From positions 1-64,000 of the forward strand of contig NZ_SJSK01000009.1 in NCBI RefSeq assembly GCF_004331645.1: a stretch of DNA of 64,000 nucleotides, given 5' to 3'. The translations under genes were made by a program, and so were the position numbers. Of this stretch, positions 15,670 to 25,831 are shown piece by piece. The notes below the pieces were generated by a model. It was not told the DNA's origin, made no database searches, and was given only the letters and a program-made list of their open reading frames with translations. The first letter of the stretch is position 1. Every line of letters begins with the position of its first letter. Source of the DNA: Pedobacter frigiditerrae (lineage in GTDB: Bacteria > Bacteroidota > Bacteroidia > Sphingobacteriales > Sphingobacteriaceae).

Positions 15670-16350
15670 TTAAACTATTTCAATAAAATTATCAACATCA
15701 CTAATTTCTTTAGTTTTATGAAGCTTTTCAAAGTACTTACACATATAGGTTATTTCACAAATGCTGCATTTCGGACTTCTCGCCACACAAACATACCTGC
15801 CATGCAGAATTAACCAATGATGAGCCATGGCAATGGTATGCTCAGGTAAATTTTTAACTAAATCTTTTTCTACTGCTAAAGGTGTTTTTCCAGTGGTTAA
15901 CCCAATTCTATTGGCAACCCTAAATACGTGAGTGTCTACCGCCATTGCCGGAGCATCATAAATAACAGATGCAATAACATTAGCAGTTTTGCGGCCAACA
16001 CCTGGCATTTTCTGTAATTGGTCTATGTCTGATGGTACTTGGTTATTAAATTCGTTTACCAGCATATTTGCCATTCCCACTAAATGCTTAGCCTTGTTAT
16101 TAGGATAACTAACACTTCTTATGTAATCAAAAACGATGTCTGGTGTAACTTCTGCCAACGCAGTAGCATTTGGGAAACGCTTAAAAAGAGCTGGAGTTAC
16201 TTGGTTGATTCTTTTATCGGTACATTGTGCAGAAAGAATAACCGCTACCAGTAATTGATAGGGATTGTTATAGTGTAATTCAGTTTCGGCATTAGGTTGT
16301 TTAGCCGCAAAGTGCTTTACAAAAAGTTGATATCGTTCTTTTTTTAGCAT
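15670..16350 (-). CDS. nth: endonuclease III
   Basis: A 226-residue base-excision-repair DNA glycosylase/AP lyase acting on oxidised pyrimidines. The helix-hairpin-helix MPGVGRKTANVI carries the catalytic Lys. The catalytic Asp lies in AVDTHVFRVANR. Near the C-terminus four cysteines (CVARSPKCSICEITYMC) form the [4Fe-4S] cluster. The open frame extends 22 codons further upstream, but homologues begin at about MLKKERYQLF, so I place the start at 16350. The upstream extension is repeat DNA (tattgag words). It follows the HTH regulator gene on the same strand by 77 bases. Confidence 0.95.
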   Translation of the reverse strand: MLKKERYQLFVKHFAAKQPNAETELHYNNPYQLLVAVILSAQCTDKRINQVTPALFKRFPNATALAEVTPDIVFDYIRSVSYPNNKAKHLVGMANMLVNEFNNQVPSDIDQLQKMPGVGRKTANVIASVIYDAPAMAVDTHVFRVANRIGLTTGKTPLAVEKDLVKNLPEHTIAMAHHWLILHGRYVCVARSPKCSICEITYMCKYFEKLHKTKEISDVDNFIEIV

Positions 16351-16359
16351 AGACAAATA

Positions 16360-16390
16360 TAGTGTTGAGTATTGAGATTTGCGTATTGAG
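16360..16390. repeat. tattgag-type dispersed repeat
   Basis: The block agtgttgagtattgagattt followed by gcgtattgag shares its core (tgcgtattgag) with copies at 63351-63362 and, on the other strand, inside leuS at 45121-45160. Confidence 0.55.
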
Positions 16391-16427
16391 TAAAACGAAC
16401 AACGAAAGACGAGCAACGAAAAATGCC

Positions 16428-17387
16428 CTAAGGTATATTTATCTCCCTTATTAAGTTATCACATTCTGCGAATGAATTGTAAAGAAATTTGTTTCGATGT
16501 TTTTCGCCCTGCCCACTAAATGAAACCGACTTTTTAATTAAGCCTTGCATCCAGTGTTTTGTTTGTTCGCAATAAGATTGGTCATCGGTCTTTAAATAAT
16601 TGAAGGTATTAAATCTATTATAACAAGACATACTTCCTTTGTGGTCTACTAAATAAGATATACTTCCTAACACATCGCAGTTATACCAATTAAAGCTGTG
16701 ATCTGGGTCGATGGTTTTTTTACTGCTAATGGCATACATATTCATGTCTGTTAAACAATACCTAACCTGTTCTATAATTTGGATGGCTAATCCTTTGTCG
16801 ATATAACCTGCTTCAAATGCATACCTAATTTGTTCAATTGTGCCATGCACAGTGTCTTTTGCCCATATTTCGGTGCAAGGGATCTCTAGGTAAATTTGAT
16901 TTAACTCTTTTGAAAGAGATATAATTTGTTCATCAAATGAGCTTGGGTCAAACTTCGTTTCAGAATTCATTGCGCTGTCTGACCAAAAGAACAGCTTAAA
17001 ACAAGTAAGCTCTGGGTATTTGAAAAAATGAAATAAGGGAATGTCATCGGTTGTAATGGTGATGTGCTTTTTAGTCCCACTTTGAATTTGCTTTAGGTTT
17101 TTTAATAAGTCTTGCAAGTACAGCAGCATATTTGGTGTTTCCTGGTCAACGCTTAAATAATCAAATGTTACTGTTGGCAGCTGCTCTGGTTTATAAAGAA
17201 AGGGAACGCCGAAGTGGTCAGAAAGCTTTACTATCTGATTGATATTTAATAAACTACTGCCCTTAATTTTTTTATAAGCCTCATTAATGCTAATTGACAA
17301 CACTTCAGCTATGCTTTGAGCCAGGTTTTGGTATGTTGGCAAAGCTGTTTTAATCTGCTCAAAGTAATTTGCTTGAAAATTAACCAT
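16428..17387 (-). CDS. HTH transcriptional regulator, Bacteroidota-type
   Basis: A 319-residue cytoplasmic protein. Residues 18-65 fit a Cro/CI or BetR-like helix-turn-helix (AEVLSISINEAYKKIKG, then a second helix pair). A segment follows that resembles a Bacteroidota-only regulator family, ending in the recognisable DIPLFHFFKYPEL near residue 115-127. The remainder is helical and has no known ligand motif. It is divergent from the five-gene envelope cluster starting at 17594, across a 206-base gap, so it is the natural candidate regulator of that cluster. That link is inference. The nth gene follows on the same strand. Confidence 0.7.
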   Translation of the reverse strand: MVNFQANYFEQIKTALPTYQNLAQSIAEVLSISINEAYKKIKGSSLLNINQIVKLSDHFGVPFLYKPEQLPTVTFDYLSVDQETPNMLLYLQDLLKNLKQIQSGTKKHITITTDDIPLFHFFKYPELTCFKLFFWSDSAMNSETKFDPSSFDEQIISLSKELNQIYLEIPCTEIWAKDTVHGTIEQIRYAFEAGYIDKGLAIQIIEQVRYCLTDMNMYAISSKKTIDPDHSFNWYNCDVLGSISYLVDHKGSMSCYNRFNTFNYLKTDDQSYCEQTKHWMQGLIKKSVSFSGQGEKHRNKFLYNSFAECDNLIREINIP

Positions 17388-17593
17388 TATTAATATTCCT
17401 AAAAATTAAGTAAACGTAAATTAACATCTTTACAAGTTAATTTAGTCTAATATACAATCTTTAGAATTAATAAATGAATAATATTGTTATTTAATTGTTC
17501 TTTAAGATTAAGCTATTTGTTTTTTGTGTCTTTAAGGATTAATTCTTCAATTTTCTACTCAATACTTTTGGTTATCAATTTAAATCAAGAGTC

Positions 17594-18172
17594 ATGAAAA
17601 CTAAAATATTAATCATCAGCGTAATTGCGATACTATTATCTGAATCTTCATTTTCACAGAAGCCGGATTTTTCGGGCTTCAATAATCTTTATTTAGGTTT
17701 TGAATTAGGTAAATCAAAAAGCTACGATAATTATGTGAATGTTGGAATTTGGGCGCAATACGACCATAATTATCTAAAAATTGCTATTAGCGATGCCAGA
17801 GACAACAGAAGTGAAGAGCAAAAATTGTTGAAGGGAGAAGATGATGAAAGCCATATCACTACACCAGGTTTAACGGACTTTGGATTAATTTATGGTAAAA
17901 CTTACACGCTATTAAAACGCCACCAATTTCAATTCGGAACAGGTGTTTCAGTTGTTGCTAAAACTATCCCAGATGAAGAGTTTAATCGTGCCAAACAGCC
18001 TTATTATTTACCCCGGTTTAATGAAGAAATAGCCATCGGCTTACCTGCTGAATTAAGGTATAGTTTTCAATTTAACAAAGGGATTGGCATAAATGCTTCG
18101 TGGAGAGGAAATGCAAACGGAGTTAAAAGCTATGGAAATTTTTCATTTGGGGCTTCAATAGGTATGTTCTAA
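17594..18172 (+). CDS. putative outer-membrane beta-barrel protein, cluster gene 1
   Basis: A 192-residue exported protein with a signal peptide (1-21, ending SSFSQ). The mature part alternates short amphipathic strands with aromatic girdles and ends in a strand finishing in Phe (SFGASIGMF), as outer-membrane barrels do. It is unrecognised by name. Its second half (FGLIYGKTYTLL, then QFGTGVSVVAK, then IGLPAELRYSF) aligns by eye with cluster gene 5 at 19983, so the two are paralogues that bracket the cluster. It is first in the presumed operon, with 30 bases before the lipoprotein gene. Confidence 0.7.
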   Translation: MKTKILIISVIAILLSESSFSQKPDFSGFNNLYLGFELGKSKSYDNYVNVGIWAQYDHNYLKIAISDARDNRSEEQKLLKGEDDESHITTPGLTDFGLIYGKTYTLLKRHQFQFGTGVSVVAKTIPDEEFNRAKQPYYLPRFNEEIAIGLPAELRYSFQFNKGIGINASWRGNANGVKSYGNFSFGASIGMF

Positions 18173-18202
18173 AAAGAAATCAATTTTTTAAAATATAATG
18201 AT

Positions 18203-18808
18203 ATGAAAACTAACACAGTAAAATACCAGGCATATTTTGTTTTGATTTTAGCAGTAGCTGTGCTCACAGGTTGTGCCTCATTTTCTAATACGAGAGTTTG
18301 GCGAGCTTCAAAGAAGTTAACCGAAAATAATTTGAGTGAACTTACAGGTACTTATTCTTTTTCCCCAGATTATGGTTACGATAAAAAAGGAAACCAAGAA
18401 GATGTCATCAATGATAAGAAGAAGGATTATTTCTATCAATACTTAACCAATAAAGCAATTAGCATTGATACTGTGTCTAGATATTTTATTTCACTTACTT
18501 ACTTAAAAGAAAACAGTATAGCTATCTCAATCAAAAAAGAAAGACTGATGATTGATAGTTTGATTTTGTCAGGAAGGTTGCAATCAAGGGGGTTGCTGAA
18601 AGTTGGAAAGACAGAAGTTAAGGTTCATGGAATACCTTACCTACTGGGAGGTACCCAAAGTAAAAAAACTAGAATTGGTGTAGCGAAGGATGGTGGCCTA
18701 ATATTGAATCACGCAGTTGATAATTCTGGTGCGTTTTTATTATTAATTGGGGCTGGAAGAGGTTTTGATGTTGCCTATCATTTTAAAAGAATCAATCCTA
18801 AAAGCTAG
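18203..18808 (+). CDS. putative lipoprotein, cluster gene 2
   Basis: A 201-residue protein with a lipoprotein signal (AVAVLTGC at about residue 24, then ASFSN). The mature region begins with a short LTENNLSELTGTYSF segment. A C-terminal half follows with GGTQSKKTRIGVAKDGGLIL and a SGAFLLLIGAG hydrophobic turn. The next gene encodes a tandem paralogue with the same order of segments. No known family was recognised. Expected location is the periplasmic face of a membrane; partners are probably the neighbouring barrel proteins. Confidence 0.7.
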   Translation: MKTNTVKYQAYFVLILAVAVLTGCASFSNTRVWRASKKLTENNLSELTGTYSFSPDYGYDKKGNQEDVINDKKKDYFYQYLTNKAISIDTVSRYFISLTYLKENSIAISIKKERLMIDSLILSGRLQSRGLLKVGKTEVKVHGIPYLLGGTQSKKTRIGVAKDGGLILNHAVDNSGAFLLLIGAGRGFDVAYHFKRINPKS

Positions 18809-18869
18809 AATTAGCACCTAGGTAATTATAAATATGTATCAATATTGCTCACAGATCATTTAAATTATT

Positions 18870-19472
18870 ATGGTTATGTATCAACTCAACTCTCCATGCG
18901 TTAAGCACTACCTTCAAAGCATAGTGCTTATAGCTGCACTTCTATTTTCTAGTTGTGTTTCGTTTCAAAAAGGAATGGAAAATCCAAGTCCATTAACAAA
19001 AAGTAACGTTGTCTCTTTAAACGGGAAATACAGCATTAATGCATCAAATGAAGAAGAGAAAACCAGAAAGTACTGGATGTACAATAATTTTTTACAGGAA
19101 TTAGATCGAAAATTATTAGCAGACACCTTCAAAATTGACTCTGCCAAAACTTACGCTGTTAGATTAGAGGTTCTAGCAAATGATAAACTAAAAATTGATT
19201 ATATCGAAAATGGTGAAACCATAAGAGAAAGAATACTTAATGCAAAACTGAAAAAAGATGGCTATCTCTATCTTAAAAACAAAAATGTAGGGCTTGTGCT
19301 GGTGCCATATGTTGCTGGTGCAATAGATATTAAGAAAACACGATTATCTAAAACAGAAGATGGCGAACTCATTTTTGATGTAGCAAATCATCGTTCGGGG
19401 GCATTTATGATTATTGCCTTTTTAGATGGTAGAACTTGGAAATACCGCAAGATTTATCCAAAAGTAATTTAA
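18870..19472 (+). CDS. putative lipoprotein, cluster gene 3 (paralogue of gene 2)
   Basis: A 200-residue protein whose signal peptide ends in LLFSSC (lipobox), followed by VSFQKG. It shares with gene 2 the L-T-x-x-N-x-x-x-L-x-G-x-Y opening, the DIKKTRLSKTEDGELIF block and the SGAFMIIAF turn. That indicates local duplication followed by divergence. Two ATG codons (18870 and 18876) are possible; the first is used here. The gap to gene 2 is 61 bases. Confidence 0.7.
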   Translation: MVMYQLNSPCVKHYLQSIVLIAALLFSSCVSFQKGMENPSPLTKSNVVSLNGKYSINASNEEEKTRKYWMYNNFLQELDRKLLADTFKIDSAKTYAVRLEVLANDKLKIDYIENGETIRERILNAKLKKDGYLYLKNKNVGLVLVPYVAGAIDIKKTRLSKTEDGELIFDVANHRSGAFMIIAFLDGRTWKYRKIYPKVI

Positions 19473-19502
19473 TCCGCTTGTCTACTCACCTAAAAATAAA
19501 TT

Positions 19503-19976
19503 ATGAAAATCATTCTTACAATATTAATGTGCCTGTTTATTAAACATGCTTGCAGTGCGCAATTGAAGCCAAAATATAATATTAAGGTAATCGAAAAAAA
19601 TAAGCATCGTGTACGCGGTGTCTTTTATGTCATTACTGATCATGAACTTATCTTGTTAAAGCACAACACTGATACCATTAAACTAAGGTTTGCTAATGTA
19701 AAAGACATTTACATTAGTAAGCGAGGGGTGGTTTTGCCATTTATATTAATCGGGGCAGGTGCTTTCGTGGTCATTGCAGCAGAATCTACCAATGCTTTAA
19801 CGCAGGCTGCCAATATTGTAGGAGGTATACCAATTGGAGTGGCTCTAGGTTCTTTAGTCGGACAATTATTTGCTAACAAGCGGTTTTATAGAGGACTGGA
19901 AGTGTCTGATTTTCCAAATATTAGGACTGATCTTGAAAAATATACTCAAAAAATTTATCAACCTTTAACTAATTAA
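19503..19976 (+). CDS. secreted or membrane protein of unknown function, cluster gene 4
   Basis: A 157-residue protein with a signal peptide (1-19, ending CSAQ). A beta-rich region follows (residues 25-75: VRGVFYVITDHELILL, TIKLRFANVKDIYI) that looks like a small SH3- or PH-like strand set. A hydrophobic Gly/Ala-rich hairpin (about 78-125) is followed by a polar tail. The hydrophobic hairpin could insert into a membrane. No family was recognised. It lies 30 bases after gene 3 and 6 bases before gene 5, so it is almost certainly part of the same transcript. Confidence 0.65.
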   Translation: MKIILTILMCLFIKHACSAQLKPKYNIKVIEKNKHRVRGVFYVITDHELILLKHNTDTIKLRFANVKDIYISKRGVVLPFILIGAGAFVVIAAESTNALTQAANIVGGIPIGVALGSLVGQLFANKRFYRGLEVSDFPNIRTDLEKYTQKIYQPLTN

Positions 19977-19982
19977 CTAAAG

Positions 19983-20525
19983 ATGAAATGCATTCTTATA
20001 ATTACCTTGAGTTTATTAATGGCTAATAACTGCATTGCACAGCAATTTTCCTTAGGATTGGAAGCTGGATTAGGAACTAAATCTGGTATATATGGCCAGT
20101 CTTATGTTGCTTTACAAAATGAGGCTTATTATTTTAAAATTAAAAATTCCAGGGTTGGTGAAATTGGACTTTTTGGTGATAGACCAAGCCCAAAACTATT
20201 TGATTATGCTTTAATGGTTGGTAAAAATTTTAATGTGGGTAGCGTTCATAATTTTCAGCTTGGTGCAGGACTTGCATTTACGGGTAAGGTAACTCAAGGA
20301 AAATACATAAGAAGTGGCGGGCAAGAAAATAGTGGTATTCTTTTGTTTGGATATAGCGTGTATGAAAAGATTCAGAAAAACACAATTGGCTTGCCAATAG
20401 AAGCAAAATATAACTTGAAATTGGGCAATATCATAGCGATAAGCTTATCGGCCAATGCAAATTTAAATGCGATACAAAGTTTTGCAGGATTGTCTGTAGG
20501 TACTTTTTTAGGGAATGTAAGATAG
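19983..20525 (+). CDS. putative outer-membrane beta-barrel protein, cluster gene 5 (paralogue of gene 1)
   Basis: A 180-residue exported protein (signal peptide 1-19, ending CIAQ). Its strands match those of gene 1 in order: YALMVGKNFNV, FQLGAGLAFTGKV, IGLPIEAKYNLKL and SFAGLSVGTFLG. It probably forms a small outer-membrane barrel. It closes the cluster, and its stop is 8 bases from the stop of the convergent MFS gene, leaving no room for a separate terminator. Confidence 0.68.
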   Translation: MKCILIITLSLLMANNCIAQQFSLGLEAGLGTKSGIYGQSYVALQNEAYYFKIKNSRVGEIGLFGDRPSPKLFDYALMVGKNFNVGSVHNFQLGAGLAFTGKVTQGKYIRSGGQENSGILLFGYSVYEKIQKNTIGLPIEAKYNLKLGNIIAISLSANANLNAIQSFAGLSVGTFLGNVR

Positions 20526-20533
20526 CCTGGTTT

Positions 20534-21715
20534 TTAGTTTAAACAAACTTCTGCCTTTGTTTTAATCTTTGCAGGATGATGGCTTTTAATCAGCCAAAAC
20601 GCAAACATCGCACCAATCAATGCCATTAATGCACCCACTAAAGCTGGCCAGGTATAATCAAACCCATAAACCAAAGGTAGTCCGCCGAAGAAAGCACCCA
20701 ATGCATTTCCAATATTAAAGCTAGCTTGACTAGCAGAGGCAGCCAACATTTCTGACCCCTTTGCGGAAGTAATCATTAACATTTGTATTGGCGCTGCTAA
20801 GGCAAAAGAAACCGCTCCGGTTATAAATGTCATTATTAAGGCTAATACAGGGTTAAATGACACGTAATGGACGATTATTAACGTTATTACCATGGTTAAC
20901 AATAAAGCGACTGAAGCTTTGGCGGGAGAAAATTTATCTGCTAAATAACCACCAATGAAATTGCCGCAAAGCATACCGAGTCCGGCTAACATGATAATGT
21001 AAGTAACACTATTTGCAGAAAAACCAGCAACATCTGTCATTAATGGAGCAATGTAGCTATACCATGTAAATAAACCGCCTGTTCCAATAGAAATCATGAT
21101 GATGATTAACCAAGCTTCTTGCTTTTTGAAGAAACCAAGCTCAGCCTTTAAATCTCTGTTTTTGTTGGCTGGCAAAGCCGGAAGCCATTGTTTAAGGCTA
21201 ATCAACGTAATGATGCCAACTATGGCTACAACAGCGAATGAGAACCGCCAAGAAAAATTATGACCGATAAAAGTACCTAACGGAACGCCCAAAACATTTG
21301 CAATGGTTAAACCCGCAAACATCATAGATACTGCTTGTGCCGCCTTACCCTTTTCTGCAATGCGACTTGCCACTACAGAACCCACGCCGAAAAATGCACC
21401 ATGTGGTAAGCCAGATAATAAACGAGCTATGAATAATAAACTAAAGTTAGGTGCAAATGCAGATAGTGCATTAAATACCGTAAACATGATCATTAAAGCA
21501 ATCAATATCTTTTTGGGTGGAAATTTGCCCGCTGCCATTACTAATAATGGAGCGCCAATGACTACGCCAAGCGCATAAGCAGAGATTAAATAGCCAGCTT
21601 GAGGAATGCTTACATTTAAATCTTTTGCAATATCTGGCAACAGACCCATCATTACAAACTCTGTAATACCGATACCTAAACCGCCTAATGTGAGTGGAAG
21701 TAAACTCTTTTTCAT
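20534..21715 (-). CDS. MFS efflux transporter (AraJ/DHA1-like)
   Basis: A 393-residue inner-membrane protein with 12 predicted helices. The start (LGGLGIGITEFVMMGLLPDI) is the hallmark of the AraJ/YdhP/CmlA branch of the drug:H+ antiporter family. A conserved glycine-rich motif (ISAYALGVVIGAPLL) follows in helix 2. These transporters export sugars, nucleosides or drugs; the substrate cannot be read from sequence. It converges on the envelope cluster and reads on its own. Confidence 0.9.
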   Translation of the reverse strand: MKKSLLPLTLGGLGIGITEFVMMGLLPDIAKDLNVSIPQAGYLISAYALGVVIGAPLLVMAAGKFPPKKILIALMIMFTVFNALSAFAPNFSLLFIARLLSGLPHGAFFGVGSVVASRIAEKGKAAQAVSMMFAGLTIANVLGVPLGTFIGHNFSWRFSFAVVAIVGIITLISLKQWLPALPANKNRDLKAELGFFKKQEAWLIIIMISIGTGGLFTWYSYIAPLMTDVAGFSANSVTYIIMLAGLGMLCGNFIGGYLADKFSPAKASVALLLTMVITLIIVHYVSFNPVLALIMTFITGAVSFALAAPIQMLMITSAKGSEMLAASASQASFNIGNALGAFFGGLPLVYGFDYTWPALVGALMALIGAMFAFWLIKSHHPAKIKTKAEVCLN

Positions 21716-21985: not shown

Positions 21986-22492
21986 ATGAAAAAGAGACCA
22001 ATCTTTTTATTGAGCTTGGCCTGTGTTTTTTTGAGCTTTGCAATATTGCCTATTTCTTGTAAAAAGAAAACCATTGGCGCACTAGAACCAGCCTTACCAG
22101 CAGAAACCCAGACAGGGGCAAGAACTTTTGGTTGCTTGGTTAATGGAGAAATATGGATACCCACTGGTATATCAATGATTCCAGCAATTACTACGAGTAT
22201 ACAATTTGATATATTAAGTTTGAAAACCAACAAGGGTGTTGAAGCTGTTAATTTTTCGGTCACAAATATGCAAACGGTTGGCAGTTATGATTTAATAACC
22301 AATAGTAATTTTGTAAGGTACATATATGATACCAATATATATAAATGCACAGATGGCACTTTAGTAATTACAAAGTACGATAAGATTAATAGAATAATTT
22401 CAGGGCACTTTTTTTTTGTTGGAAAGGATAGTGCTACTGGAAAAACAATAAAGATAACAGAAGGTAGATTTGATGTGCCTTTTACTAATTAA
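21986..22492 (+). CDS. putative lipoprotein, DUF6252-like
   Basis: A 168-residue protein. A long hydrophobic signal ends in the lipobox LPISC (about residue 25), followed by KKK. The mature part starts with TFGCLVNGEIWIPTG, the typical opening of DUF6252-type Bacteroidota lipoproteins, and continues as a beta-sandwich-like domain. It ends 24 bases before the large T9SS protein gene, so the two are probably co-expressed at the surface. Function is unknown. Confidence 0.75.
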   Translation: MKKRPIFLLSLACVFLSFAILPISCKKKTIGALEPALPAETQTGARTFGCLVNGEIWIPTGISMIPAITTSIQFDILSLKTNKGVEAVNFSVTNMQTVGSYDLITNSNFVRYIYDTNIYKCTDGTLVITKYDKINRIISGHFFFVGKDSATGKTIKITEGRFDVPFTN

Positions 22493-22516
22493 TTCTTAAC
22501 TATAACTCTTCTCGAA

Positions 22517-25500
22517 ATGAAAAAACTACTCTTCTTATTGTTGTGCTTACTACTAGGAGCAAAGCTACAGGCACAGGAAACGCCAAATGATTTTTCGGAT
22601 AGAATTAAAAGTATCTTTCAGCACGTAGACAAAACACCTGTTTACACGGGCATTTTGTTAGATGTCGGCGTTAATTTTAGTAACTTAAATAATTTTACTG
22701 GAACCATATTGGTTGATAGTAACTATGTGAGTTTAAAGGAGTGGCGAAGTATTTATGGCTCGTTGCTTTCTTCCCAATTTAGCAATACCGTTAGTTTTAC
22801 ATCTTTTGGTTCTTTTAATACTGCCCTAAACGCACTAACTTATGATTCGCTTGCCACTCCATTTGTTTATTTACATTACAATTATCAGGAGCTGCGTGAC
22901 GATGCCATTACAGCAGGACTGATGTACGAAACTGGAGACCAGCTGTATGATGTAAACACTCGAACTCAAAGCCCTTATCTTACTAAAACAGCATTTGCAA
23001 TAGCTCCACAAAAAGAATATTTTAATGCACTTGGGGGTTATGTAAGTTTCACACTACCAAGTACATTAATGTTTGGCAATACCACCAAAACCATTAGTCA
23101 GATTAAAATAGATTTAGGCGATGGTAATGGTTTGCAAATAAAATCCATAAACACACCATTTAGTACAAGCTATACTACTACAGGTTACAAAACTATTAAT
23201 TACGAAGTTACTTTTACCGATAACAGCACTCTGATTTCGCACAGTAGAATTTATGTAGAGGTAACAGCTGAAGAGGAATCACCTGGCGGTGGCTCAATTT
23301 CTAAGGCTTACCATGCTAGAACAGGGCATACTATTGAGATCAATACGCCATCTGGATTAAAAAAGGCTTTTTTGCAGATTAGACTGAGTAATAACCATCT
23401 TAATGACAACATTATTAAGCCTTTAATTGTGGTGGAGGGTATTGATTTTTGGAAGATTACAACACCCAATACACCTAATGAAGATTTTACTGTTGATAGA
23501 TTTTTAACAAATAGTCTTGACCAGATATTATACCCAAGTAATACATTTTTGAACAATGATATTGATTTACTTGGCTATGATATTGTTTTTGTGAATTTTG
23601 ATGATGCCACTGATGCTCTAGAAACAAATTCGGCTCTTGTACAGGCCGCTATACAATGGGTTAATGGTAACAAAACAGGTAGTGCAGATAATGTAATTTT
23701 AGGTTTGAGTATGGGTGGTGTAATCGCAAGACATGCCCTTCGTAGCCTAGAAACTAACAGCATTGCCCATCACACCAGTTTATACATTAGCATGGATAGT
23801 CCTCATCAAGGAGCTAACTTTCCTTTAGGTTTGCAAGCTTTGGTCAAACATATTAATAAAGCAGAGTTCAGTTTGTTTTGGGGGGCAATCCCATTAATTA
23901 AACTGGTAGATATGTATCCAGAGTTAAAAGTTGCTAAAGATATACTTAATGCACCAGCGTCGAAACAGTTACTGTATTATAGAATAGGAGATGCAGCTAA
24001 TTTAGCAGTAGATAATACCGAACATGATACTTTTTATAGTGCCTACCATTCTTTGGGTATGCCATCGAGTAGAAATATTGCGATTAGCAATGGGTCAGAA
24101 TGCGGAACCTTACAGCCCTTTGCACCATATACTACATTATTTGAGGTTAAAGAAGAAAAGCGTTTAAAGATACCGTTTTTGGCTAATTTAATAGACTTTT
24201 TTACAGCTCCTTACCAAGTGGTAGGTGGATTGTTAACTAACAGACCTCTAATCGGATTTGGTTCCATATTGGGTCCATTGTCTACAAAAACAAGTTTTGT
24301 TACAGAAATTAGGGCAAAATCCTTGCCTAACCAAACTAATCAACAGGTTTATAAAGGCTTTGTTGGAATCAAGCGTAAGATATTAGGTTTGTTTAATGTA
24401 AACTCAGCTATTACAGATAGATCCGCAAATGCTGGAAGTTATATGCTTCCATTGGACAACGGAGTTGGCGGGGAGGCAAGCTTTAGTAACGGATCTTCTG
24501 TAGGTGTGCCTTCTGGCTTGGCAGATGTTGTTTTAGTTCCCAGCTTCAATTATGTCCCCTCGGTAAGTTCACTAGACATTGGTAATGGAGCAACTACTAT
24601 TTCCACTTCGCAACTTTATACAGGTTACAGCAGAAATATCCCTACAACCAGCCCAAATAATTCGCCATTCGATAATTTTGTTACTTCAGTTGTGGGTAAC
24701 GAAGATCATGTAACTTTCACATCTCGCAATGGCGATTTTTTATTAAAAGAATTGGCAGGCACAACTACAGGTTTCGTCAGTTGTGGTGTTTTTTGTAATC
24801 CAACTAGCTCATTTAATATTACTGGTCCTGTTATTTCAGGGGCTAATACTACTTATTCAATTACAGGCGTGCCCTCTGGAACAACAATTAATTGGGAGGT
24901 GGGTGGAGGGTATACAATTGTAGGTTCTTCAAATAGTACAACAGTTGGAATTGCAACTCCTACATATACTAATCAGTTTGCAGTATTGGCAGCGATATTA
25001 CGTAGTCCTTGTGGTGAATTTGCCGTCAGAAAAACATTAGTGCCACCATTAATTACAATTAGCCAAAATAATAATACGGGTGCTTGTGGCGAGGCTACGG
25101 CCGAGATCAATGTCCCTTCTGGCGCAAACTTTCATTGGACAGCAGATGGAGATATAAATATCAATGGTCTTGGTCAGTCTGTTTACACGAGCTCTAACAG
25201 TGTGAATATAACTGGATTGGGCGGTACAGTTTATTGTACTTTTATGAGCTATAATAATCAGGTGGTTACATATACAGCACATAATCCTTATCAAGTTTCC
25301 ATTAGTATAGGTGCAAACCCTATGATAGGAAGCGATCCACTAACAGCAATGATCCAAAGCGTAGGTTATTCGTACAATGCAATAAGATGGTATTTAGATG
25401 GTAATTTAATTGCAAGTGGAGTAGAATCTTTTTATGATAGCGGTAATCCTCCATGCGGTAATCATACCATATCAGTAGAAGTTGATTTGCCTTGTGGCGC

Positions 25501-25831
25501 AACGGTAACAGCTGGTTCAATAGAAGTTGAGCGATATTGCAGTGGTATGCGAAGTATGGTTGTTTATCCAAACCCTGCAGTTGGTAGTAGCTTGTTTGTA
25601 GCTCCTGATGAAACCAAAATGGCAAAAATATCTACTGCTGAAAAAAGTAAAATGAAGGAATATGAGGTTTGGCTTTATGATGTAAAGGGTAAGCTAAGGA
25701 AGAATACTAAAAGCAGAAACTATAAAGTAGAGCTAGACACAAGAGGTTTACCATCAGACACCTATTTTCTGCACATGAGAATGGATGGAGAAAAAGAGAC
25801 AATTAAAAAACAGGTAATTATTCGTAATTAA
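22517..25831 (+). CDS. T9SS-secreted alpha/beta-hydrolase-like multidomain protein
   Basis: A 1104-residue secreted protein. A signal peptide (1-19, ending KLQAQ) and a roughly 250-residue N-terminal region precede a PGAP1/lipase-like alpha/beta-hydrolase domain (about 290-480). Its nucleophile elbow is GLSMGG with Ser398, and DSPHQGANFPL follows. Around residues 770-1010 lie PKD-like or Ig-like beta repeats (NITGPVISGANTTYSITG opens the first). The last 75 residues are a type A T9SS sorting domain (VYPNP, LYDVKGK, ELDTRGLPSDTYFL, KQVIIRN). So it is exported by type IX secretion and anchored or released. The substrate, perhaps a lipid ester, is not determined. A terminator follows. Confidence 0.88.
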   Translation: MKKLLFLLLCLLLGAKLQAQETPNDFSDRIKSIFQHVDKTPVYTGILLDVGVNFSNLNNFTGTILVDSNYVSLKEWRSIYGSLLSSQFSNTVSFTSFGSFNTALNALTYDSLATPFVYLHYNYQELRDDAITAGLMYETGDQLYDVNTRTQSPYLTKTAFAIAPQKEYFNALGGYVSFTLPSTLMFGNTTKTISQIKIDLGDGNGLQIKSINTPFSTSYTTTGYKTINYEVTFTDNSTLISHSRIYVEVTAEEESPGGGSISKAYHARTGHTIEINTPSGLKKAFLQIRLSNNHLNDNIIKPLIVVEGIDFWKITTPNTPNEDFTVDRFLTNSLDQILYPSNTFLNNDIDLLGYDIVFVNFDDATDALETNSALVQAAIQWVNGNKTGSADNVILGLSMGGVIARHALRSLETNSIAHHTSLYISMDSPHQGANFPLGLQALVKHINKAEFSLFWGAIPLIKLVDMYPELKVAKDILNAPASKQLLYYRIGDAANLAVDNTEHDTFYSAYHSLGMPSSRNIAISNGSECGTLQPFAPYTTLFEVKEEKRLKIPFLANLIDFFTAPYQVVGGLLTNRPLIGFGSILGPLSTKTSFVTEIRAKSLPNQTNQQVYKGFVGIKRKILGLFNVNSAITDRSANAGSYMLPLDNGVGGEASFSNGSSVGVPSGLADVVLVPSFNYVPSVSSLDIGNGATTISTSQLYTGYSRNIPTTSPNNSPFDNFVTSVVGNEDHVTFTSRNGDFLLKELAGTTTGFVSCGVFCNPTSSFNITGPVISGANTTYSITGVPSGTTINWEVGGGYTIVGSSNSTTVGIATPTYTNQFAVLAAILRSPCGEFAVRKTLVPPLITISQNNNTGACGEATAEINVPSGANFHWTADGDININGLGQSVYTSSNSVNITGLGGTVYCTFMSYNNQVVTYTAHNPYQVSISIGANPMIGSDPLTAMIQSVGYSYNAIRWYLDGNLIASGVESFYDSGNPPCGNHTISVEVDLPCGATVTAGSIEVERYCSGMRSMVVYPNPAVGSSLFVAPDETKMAKISTAEKSKMKEYEVWLYDVKGKLRKNTKSRNYKVELDTRGLPSDTYFLHMRMDGEKETIKKQVIIRN

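Follow-up and report, generated by a model that had tools for sequence, protein, structure and literature searches.

DesR/DesK, FabR and DesT are local regulators of membrane fatty-acid desaturation, and local regulators beside divergent operons, like chromosomal slots of variable content, are familiar kinds of arrangement. The locus considered here lies in a 64,000-nucleotide stretch of Pedobacter frigiditerrae (assembly GCF_004331645.1, contig NZ_SJSK01000009.1, positions 1 to 64,000; this whole stretch is called the window), and consists of a gene for a helix-turn-helix (HTH) regulator on the minus strand and five plus-strand genes, g1 to g5, reading divergently from it (Table 1). A first-pass annotation, made from the letters of this DNA alone, had described five co-directional envelope-type genes with gaps of 6-61 bases and an HTH gene reading away from them, and the open reading frames (ORFs) are indeed where it placed them, all five in one direction, with gaps of 30, 61, 30 and 6 bases between g1 and g5 and of 206 base pairs (bp) between the HTH gene and g1. 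Comparison with relatives gives good support to three features, namely a conserved HTH protein, a conserved promoter architecture and a modular cargo. We consider it rather probable, albeit far from certain, that the locus is a fixed regulatory dock whose exchangeable envelope and lipid cargo is governed by the HTH regulator family. No description of this regulator family was found in the titles and abstract openings of the literature, and the combination of one regulator family, an operator-promoter distance common to two different operators and interchangeable lipid or envelope cargo is, as far as checked, undescribed.

The exchange of cargo is best seen within the genus. The HTH gene is present in 59 of 145 same-genus genomes, and 59 loci were read from 58 of these (a remnant in G129 was left out and G104 gives two), with cargo identified by profiles up to 9 kilobases (kb) beyond the HTH gene. 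Its neighbour is divergent in 57 of the 59 loci, yet what that neighbour and its followers encode varies widely: g1-type genes occur in 24 loci, g5-type genes in 19, a desaturase pair in 18, g2/g3-type genes in 14, an LA_2272-type protein (c13) in 12 (family NF047436 being confirmed for two members) and A2M cargo in five (confirmed for one), while g4, an unnamed 298-residue protein, an Acg-like plus PaaK-like pair and a DUF6252 plus lipase-like pair are found in two loci each. Three loci are without recognised cargo; the remaining 56 fall into 23 arrangements (22 with a split g1 taken as a single gene). The complete five-gene set is confined to the window, as is the presence of two g2/g3-type genes together (1/59). 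In Pedobacter polaris (L001) the same slot, recA-nth-HTH-cargo-MFS, holds g2, two fatty-acid desaturases (PF00487), g4 and g5 in one co-directional run. The two loci closest to the window by HTH (L091 and L092, 94%) have g1 but, where g2-g5 would stand, genes for an Acg-like oxidoreductase and a PaaK-like ligase.

In spite of this variability, the barrel genes hardly ever stray from the regulator. Matches to g1/g5 occur in 37 of the 145 genomes, all of which also hold the HTH gene or a remnant of it, and by coordinates the HTH locus contains 45 of the 48 matches, the others being one in G008 (about 7-8 kb off) and two on a small separate contig of G103; g2-like proteins are found in 28 of the 145 genomes at E <= 0.01, a dozen or so of these being strong. 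The expectation that the five-gene order would be kept with the HTH gene in relatives is thus borne out for the linkage to the regulator and fails for the order, the genes being scattered among loci.

Could the five genes nevertheless form a single unit? The first-pass annotation had proposed that two barrels and two lipoproteins form an envelope complex, and the paralogy on which that idea drew is real: g1 and g5 match at E 6e-13 with 24% identity, and g2 and g3 at E 2e-16 with 26% identity (BLASTP, one-to-one E-values), and, with the first 22 residues removed, neither score was reached in any of 1000 shuffles per pair, as against 586 (g1/g2), 126 (g2/g4) and 106 (g3/g4) of 1000 for three other pairs. 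A stable complex selected as a five-gene system would fit the tight co-directional spacing, the two paralogous pairs and the eight of 59 loci in which g1-type and g5-type genes stand together. However, the full set is found at none of the other 58 loci and each family is also met without the others, g1 without g5 in 16 loci and g5 without g1 in 11. Furthermore, g1 is never found with desaturases (0/18 desaturase loci vs 24/38 other cargo loci, relatedness uncorrected), whereas g5 (nine loci) and g2/g3 (five loci) are, as is the LA_2272 protein (three loci). A dedicated complex is consequently improbable, and the mode of action proposed here would not require one.

The distribution of cargo was also traced on a tree of the regulator. 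On the best HTH tree, of 56 rows, the first-cargo label changes 23 times, against a minimum of 8 and a mean of 33.4 in shuffles, and near-identical regulators may stand beside different cargo, as with g2 in G122 vs c13 in G033. The g1-type and g5-type genes themselves form separate groups on their own tree. On its downstream side the slot is bounded by the MFS-type gene in 36 of the 59 loci, and recA (named by eye) and nth recur as neighbours in many relatives. Cargo would be replaced by recombination between conserved flanks, i.e. HTH/nth on one side and MFS on the other; a repeat search of 16300-20700 found short imperfect repeats only and nothing resembling an invertible element. Perhaps, alternatively, the locus is a hypervariable surface-antigen or phage-receptor locus, in which the regulator switches surface proteins, their diversity is driven by phages or predators and the link to lipids is incidental. 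Mean column identity is 32% in 40 barrels vs 73% in a 22-row HTH alignment (intact same-genus HTH copies being mostly 62-94% identical), LA_2272 surface-repeat proteins are among the cargo, and cargo differs behind near-identical regulators, all of which would suit such a locus. The desaturases, HMG-CoA reductase, CDP-alcohol transferase and cytidylyltransferase found as cargo are, by contrast, lipid enzymes and not surface receptors, and we hold this explanation to be unlikely.

The fixed part of the proposed dock is its control region. In 56 of the 59 loci (motif and gap counts exclude G076, G090 and G104b, which are fragments or have no recognised cargo) the distance from the HTH gene to the next ORF was determined, and it measures 203-211 bp in 34, across several cargo kinds. 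A profile, R1, was built from 39 of 50 extracted control regions, the window's own among them, so that its members match by construction; it matches the window region at E 3.3e-14, with a single other own-genome match at E <= 0.1 (0.034), and at E < 1e-6 it finds 49 places in the genus, 48 of them beside an HTH gene and one before a displaced g1 in G008. This displaced g1-type gene (L234, near contig position 407290) is preceded by a separate copy of the control region, and the slot of the G008 HTH gene itself holds an A2M-type gene, the displaced g1 lying about 8-9 kb away.

Smoothed conservation along the control-region alignment shows a broad repeat with a peak at 32 bp, and two kinds of element can be recognised. 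One is a TAnnTTTG motif, which we take to be the Bacteroidota -7 promoter element consensus, fitted in the window by TACTTTTG and found in the corresponding part of 42 of the 56 same-genus regions. The other is a palindrome with the consensus TAATCTTWAAGATTA, present with two mismatches or fewer in 38 of the 56 regions, whereas shuffles gave a mean of 0.66 and a maximum of 4. When 44 sites with up to three mismatches were paired with TAnnTTTG, 20 were centred 28-29 bp and 11 were centred 59-61 bp upstream of it, i.e. 31 of 44 at one of these two distances, the rest lying at 91-163 bp. Such distances from the -7 element are usual for activators. In the window itself the better palindrome occupies the distal position and GTCTTTAAGGATTAAT, a weaker site seen by eye, the proximal one; the site at 17528-17543 was not picked up by a scan allowing four mismatches, and a two-site pattern found no match in the own genome, the locus itself included, the pattern being ill-fitted to the sites of the locus. 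A first motif search by expectation maximization drifted to a low-information AT-rich palindrome and was not used for any claim. Together, the conserved control region, the fixed palindrome distances and the divergent layout lend comparative support to the earlier suggestion that the cargo may be under the control of the HTH protein. With the palindromes centred 29 and 60 bp ahead of the -7 element, or at roughly -42 and -73 from the transcription start, an HTH dimer would bind them along a single face of the DNA and, once bound, activate the cargo promoter; because the sites lie at the 29- and 60-bp positions, activation is favoured over repression in the window's genus.

The regulator is by no means confined to one genus. 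An HTH profile matched 103 of 399 genomes and six of 25 genera in a sample of the family, and 22 of 395 genomes and 12 of 170 genera in a sample of the phylum, giving nine families, the window's own included, all in one class of Bacteroidota; among plasmids there was one weak Hymenobacter record, and no relative was found on viral contigs. From the family sample 36 loci of other genera were read (from 35 of 56 genomes with a match), and from the phylum sample 19 loci of other families (from 19 of the 21 other genomes matched). Of the 36 other-genus loci, 34 have a divergent next gene, and the cargo of the 36 includes a barrel-like protein (PF13505 under cut-off) accompanied by a lipoprotein-like one, or a c13-type protein that in most cases has a second exported protein beside it. 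In other families the next gene is a PF00487 desaturase in seven of 19 loci, and a fatty-acid hydroxylase gene (PF04116) stands within two genes of the HTH gene in three further ones; others carry c13-type proteins, and G804 has a weak match of g2/g3 type (E 1e-4). Desaturase neighbours are not expected by chance, since the own genome has two PF00487 genes only, on other contigs (C10 and C6). On a 71-row HTH tree, which includes 16 same-genus proteins, the desaturase label changes seven times.

Several loci of these wider samples deserve mention in their own right. In another genus of the family (L202, L203, L206 and related loci) genes for AvrD (PF05655, E 1.2e-18), an AAA_28 protein and an AraC-type protein are divergent to the HTH gene, the AvrD family being linked to syringolide biosynthesis. 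At L213, L214 and related loci, genes for HMG-CoA reductase, a CDP-alcohol transferase and a cytidylyltransferase lie behind the HTH gene, apparently as a lipid pathway, and some of these loci add a UbiA prenyltransferase and a PEP-synthase-like protein (the latter by eye). Two genomes of other families hold a tandem pair of HTH paralogues (L259, L260). The LA_2272 surface-repeat proteins (NF047436) and AvrD (PF05655) are thus cargo of the same regulator family elsewhere and were not found in the cargo of the window.

Does the promoter architecture also recur outside the genus? A different palindrome, TTTGYGATWATCRCAAA, was examined in two other genera (14 loci plus one, 15 in all) and in eight loci of one other-family genus, all chosen for showing it. 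With two mismatches or fewer it is present in 15/15 and 8/8 of these regions, about 0 being found in shuffles, and its distance upstream of TAnnTTTG is exactly 60 bp in 22 of the 23 and 61 bp in the other, even though their cargo ranges from HMG-CoA reductase and c13/LA_2272-type proteins to a desaturase and, at one locus, a lipoprotein. The other loci read (AvrD-type, g14 barrel-type, G815, G766) showed no TTTGYGATWATCRCAAA-like palindrome by eye. In 19 of the 23 chosen regions a TAnnTTTG-like element of the HTH gene itself adjoins the palindrome, which suggests that in these relatives the HTH protein may repress its own gene; in the window's genus such an element was found in four of 56 regions, in no fixed place. 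The same juxtaposition could indicate a repressor-controlled stress operon of ordinary outer-membrane proteins, in which the HTH protein represses both sides and the cargo provides generic envelope-stress protection. Six of the 15 other-genus regions show, in addition, a weak extra palindrome (three mismatches) about 8 bp upstream of TAnnTTTG, and none of the eight in the other-family genus does; because a palindrome over the core promoter suits a repressor, it leaves the sign of regulation uncertain and counts against activation. The activator-like distances kept by most paired sites in the window's genus speak, however, against repression of the cargo, and we regard a stress operon of this kind as possible though on the unlikely side.

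What might the regulator respond to? Its N-terminal part passes the curated cut-off of BetR (PF08667; 23.1 bits, cut-off 21.6), and 21 of 22 family members match that profile at E <= 0.01. The match spans positions 25-64 of 148 in the profile, that is, the HTH part and not the whole domain, and for this reason the protein is not filed as a BetR protein. BetR regulators share with it the N-terminal HTH and differ in the remaining ~250 residues, where BetR finds no match, and this C-terminal region had no Pfam family over its cut-off, no NCBIfam family and no credible solved-structure match, a profile search of solved structures finding the HTH part only (E 0.019). We infer binding, activation and lipid sensing from comparison of sequences. 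Since a membrane fatty-acid desaturase is the partner most often found beside it in other families, the C-terminal region is proposed to respond to membrane state or to a lipid-like ligand, in which case g1-g5 may adjust the outer membrane under a signal that elsewhere calls up desaturases. Support for these steps falls from binding of the palindromes by the HTH protein, through control of the cargo and lipid sensing, to adjustment of the outer membrane by g1-g5. It is conceivable, and we put it forward tentatively as somewhat doubtful, that the whole regulator family in its nine families senses lipid state, keeps a rigid operator geometry and swaps cassettes, with g1-type barrels substituting for desaturase pairs.

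A number of further observations weigh against the dock and its lipid link. Well-supported branches of the HTH tree force only six changes each for the g1, g2/g3 and c13 labels and two for the desaturase label, clustering of the g2/g3 label does not exceed that of shuffled labels (336 of 500 shuffles being as low), and some loci end at contig ends, where arrangements may be cut short. Taken alone, the palindrome is unspecific, with 85 own-genome sites vs 87 for a reversed-pattern control; the palindromes were, moreover, defined in the same regions in which they were tested, the shuffles controlling composition and not motif choice. At E <= 0.1, R1 matches 101 of the 145 genomes, and because many of these are without the HTH gene the weak matches are treated as background. 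Divergence of the neighbour drops to 13 of 19 loci in other families, the desaturase cases there come from two genera (six loci plus one) and so represent few independent events, and the hydroxylase genes of G627 and G546 are on the HTH gene's own strand instead of divergent to it. The window locus is itself without a desaturase and is therefore no desaturase operon, some cargo is not lipid-related (AvrD with AAA_28 and AraC-type genes; A2M; Acg-like with PaaK-like), and the C-terminal part of the HTH protein has no fold assignment.

The first-pass annotation had recognised none of the five cargo proteins of the window as a named family, and none of g1-g5 matched a Pfam or NCBIfam family over its cut-off. 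For g5 a model of moderate confidence (mean pLDDT 62.8, pTM 0.56, from a three-sequence alignment) predicts an eight-stranded barrel, whose best PDB matches are NspA (Z 17.6; root-mean-square deviation 2.5 over 140 residues), OmpA (Z 17.4) and OprF (Z 17.2), with PagL at Z 16.5. The model thus shares the fold of the eight-stranded barrels NspA, OmpA (transmembrane domain), OmpX, OmpW and PagL at 10-14% identity, and a g1/g5 profile found no PDB sequence match. Two of the 40 barrel-family members matched the Pfam OMP_b-brl family PF13568 (best E 0.012), g1 itself giving no match. The invariant columns of the 40 are M, G, Y, G, G, E, N and G, with no His and no Ser. The lipid A enzymes PagL and PagP have conserved catalytic His/Ser, and an enzyme of this type was rejected for g1/g5 on that ground.

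For g2 and g3, the lipobox Cys is invariant in 17 aligned family members, and Pfam LPAM_1 matched under its cut-off. Surface-exported Bacteroidota lipoproteins carry an acidic export signal right after this Cys; neither g2 (CASFSN from the Cys) nor g3 (CVSFQK) has an acidic run there, and, lacking a recognisable surface-export signal, both probably face the periplasm. A structure model of g2 was too poor for use (pLDDT 38.1), and a solved-structure profile search gave g2/g3 no fold assignment, all matches apart from the HTH one having E above 0.2. The layout of a regulator with a variable slot may also recall defence islands, which combine a regulator with variable cargo in a slot, and the locus could in principle be an anti-phage defence or toxin-antitoxin cassette with a divergent regulator. 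Against this, an anti-phage identity of the six proteins was rejected on PADLOC matches that are all weak (the best, at E 0.0053, being partial), the six had no PHROGs match at E <= 0.01, and a search of viral contigs gave no HTH relative, which makes such a cassette most improbable.

Table 1. Features of the locus and its immediate surroundings (window coordinates)
Feature	Position	Strand	Basis or remark
Endonuclease III-like gene (nth), name by eye	15670..16416	-	Adjoins recA, at the opposite end of the slot; context
HTH regulator, 319 aa	16428..17387	-	N-terminal BetR-like HTH and ~250-aa C-terminal region without named family
Divergent control region between HTH and g1	17388..17593		Kept gap length; profile R1 match
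Operator-like site, 3 mismatches	17394..17408		Palindrome scan
Weaker operator-like site, 3 mismatches	17455..17469		Palindrome scan
Palindrome, consensus TAATCTTWAAGATTA, 2 mismatches	17496..17510		Centre 60 bp upstream of TACTTTTG; operator-like
Second operator-like site GTCTTTAAGGATTAAT	17528..17543		Centre about 28 bp upstream of TACTTTTG; weaker, by eye
TACTTTTG element	17563..17570	+	Fits TAnnTTTG
g1, outer-membrane beta-barrel paralogue 1	17594..18172	+	Homology to g5; signal peptide by eye; C-terminal Phe
g2, lipoprotein, 201 aa, LTGC lipobox	18203..18808	+	Lipobox; homology to g3
g3, lipoprotein paralogue of g2, 200 aa, FSSC lipobox	18870..19472	+	Lipobox; homology to g2
g4, 157 aa	19503..19976	+	Signal peptide, strand-like part and glycine-rich hydrophobic hairpin, all by eye
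g5, eight-stranded outer-membrane barrel, 180 aa	19983..20525	+	AF2 model
MFS-type transporter, name by eye	20534..21715	-	Downstream edge of slot; context, not cargo

Beyond the MFS-type gene, window positions 21986-25831 encode a lipoprotein of the DUF6252/Riean_0653 family (168 residues) and a protein of 1104 residues with a type IX secretion system (T9SS) sorting domain and a PGAP1 lipase-like match just under cut-off. Relatives of these two genes adjoin or stand near the HTH gene in G056 (L100) and G078 (L132), and the pair may be another cargo module.

Bacteroidota are major bacteria of soil, sea and gut, and little is understood of the ways in which they adjust their outer membrane. If the locus is indeed a regulatory dock, following its regulator would reveal many uncharacterised envelope genes that answer one signal, and the identity of that signal would be directly testable, because some of the cargoes, i.e. 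the desaturases and hydroxylases, have predictable chemistry. DesR/DesK, FabR and DesT, taken as functional analogues only, offer a close comparison: like them, the HTH protein is a DNA-binding regulator standing beside desaturase genes (in 18 of 59 same-genus and seven of 19 other-family loci), but, unlike in those systems, the desaturase is only one of the many cargoes that the HTH family accompanies.

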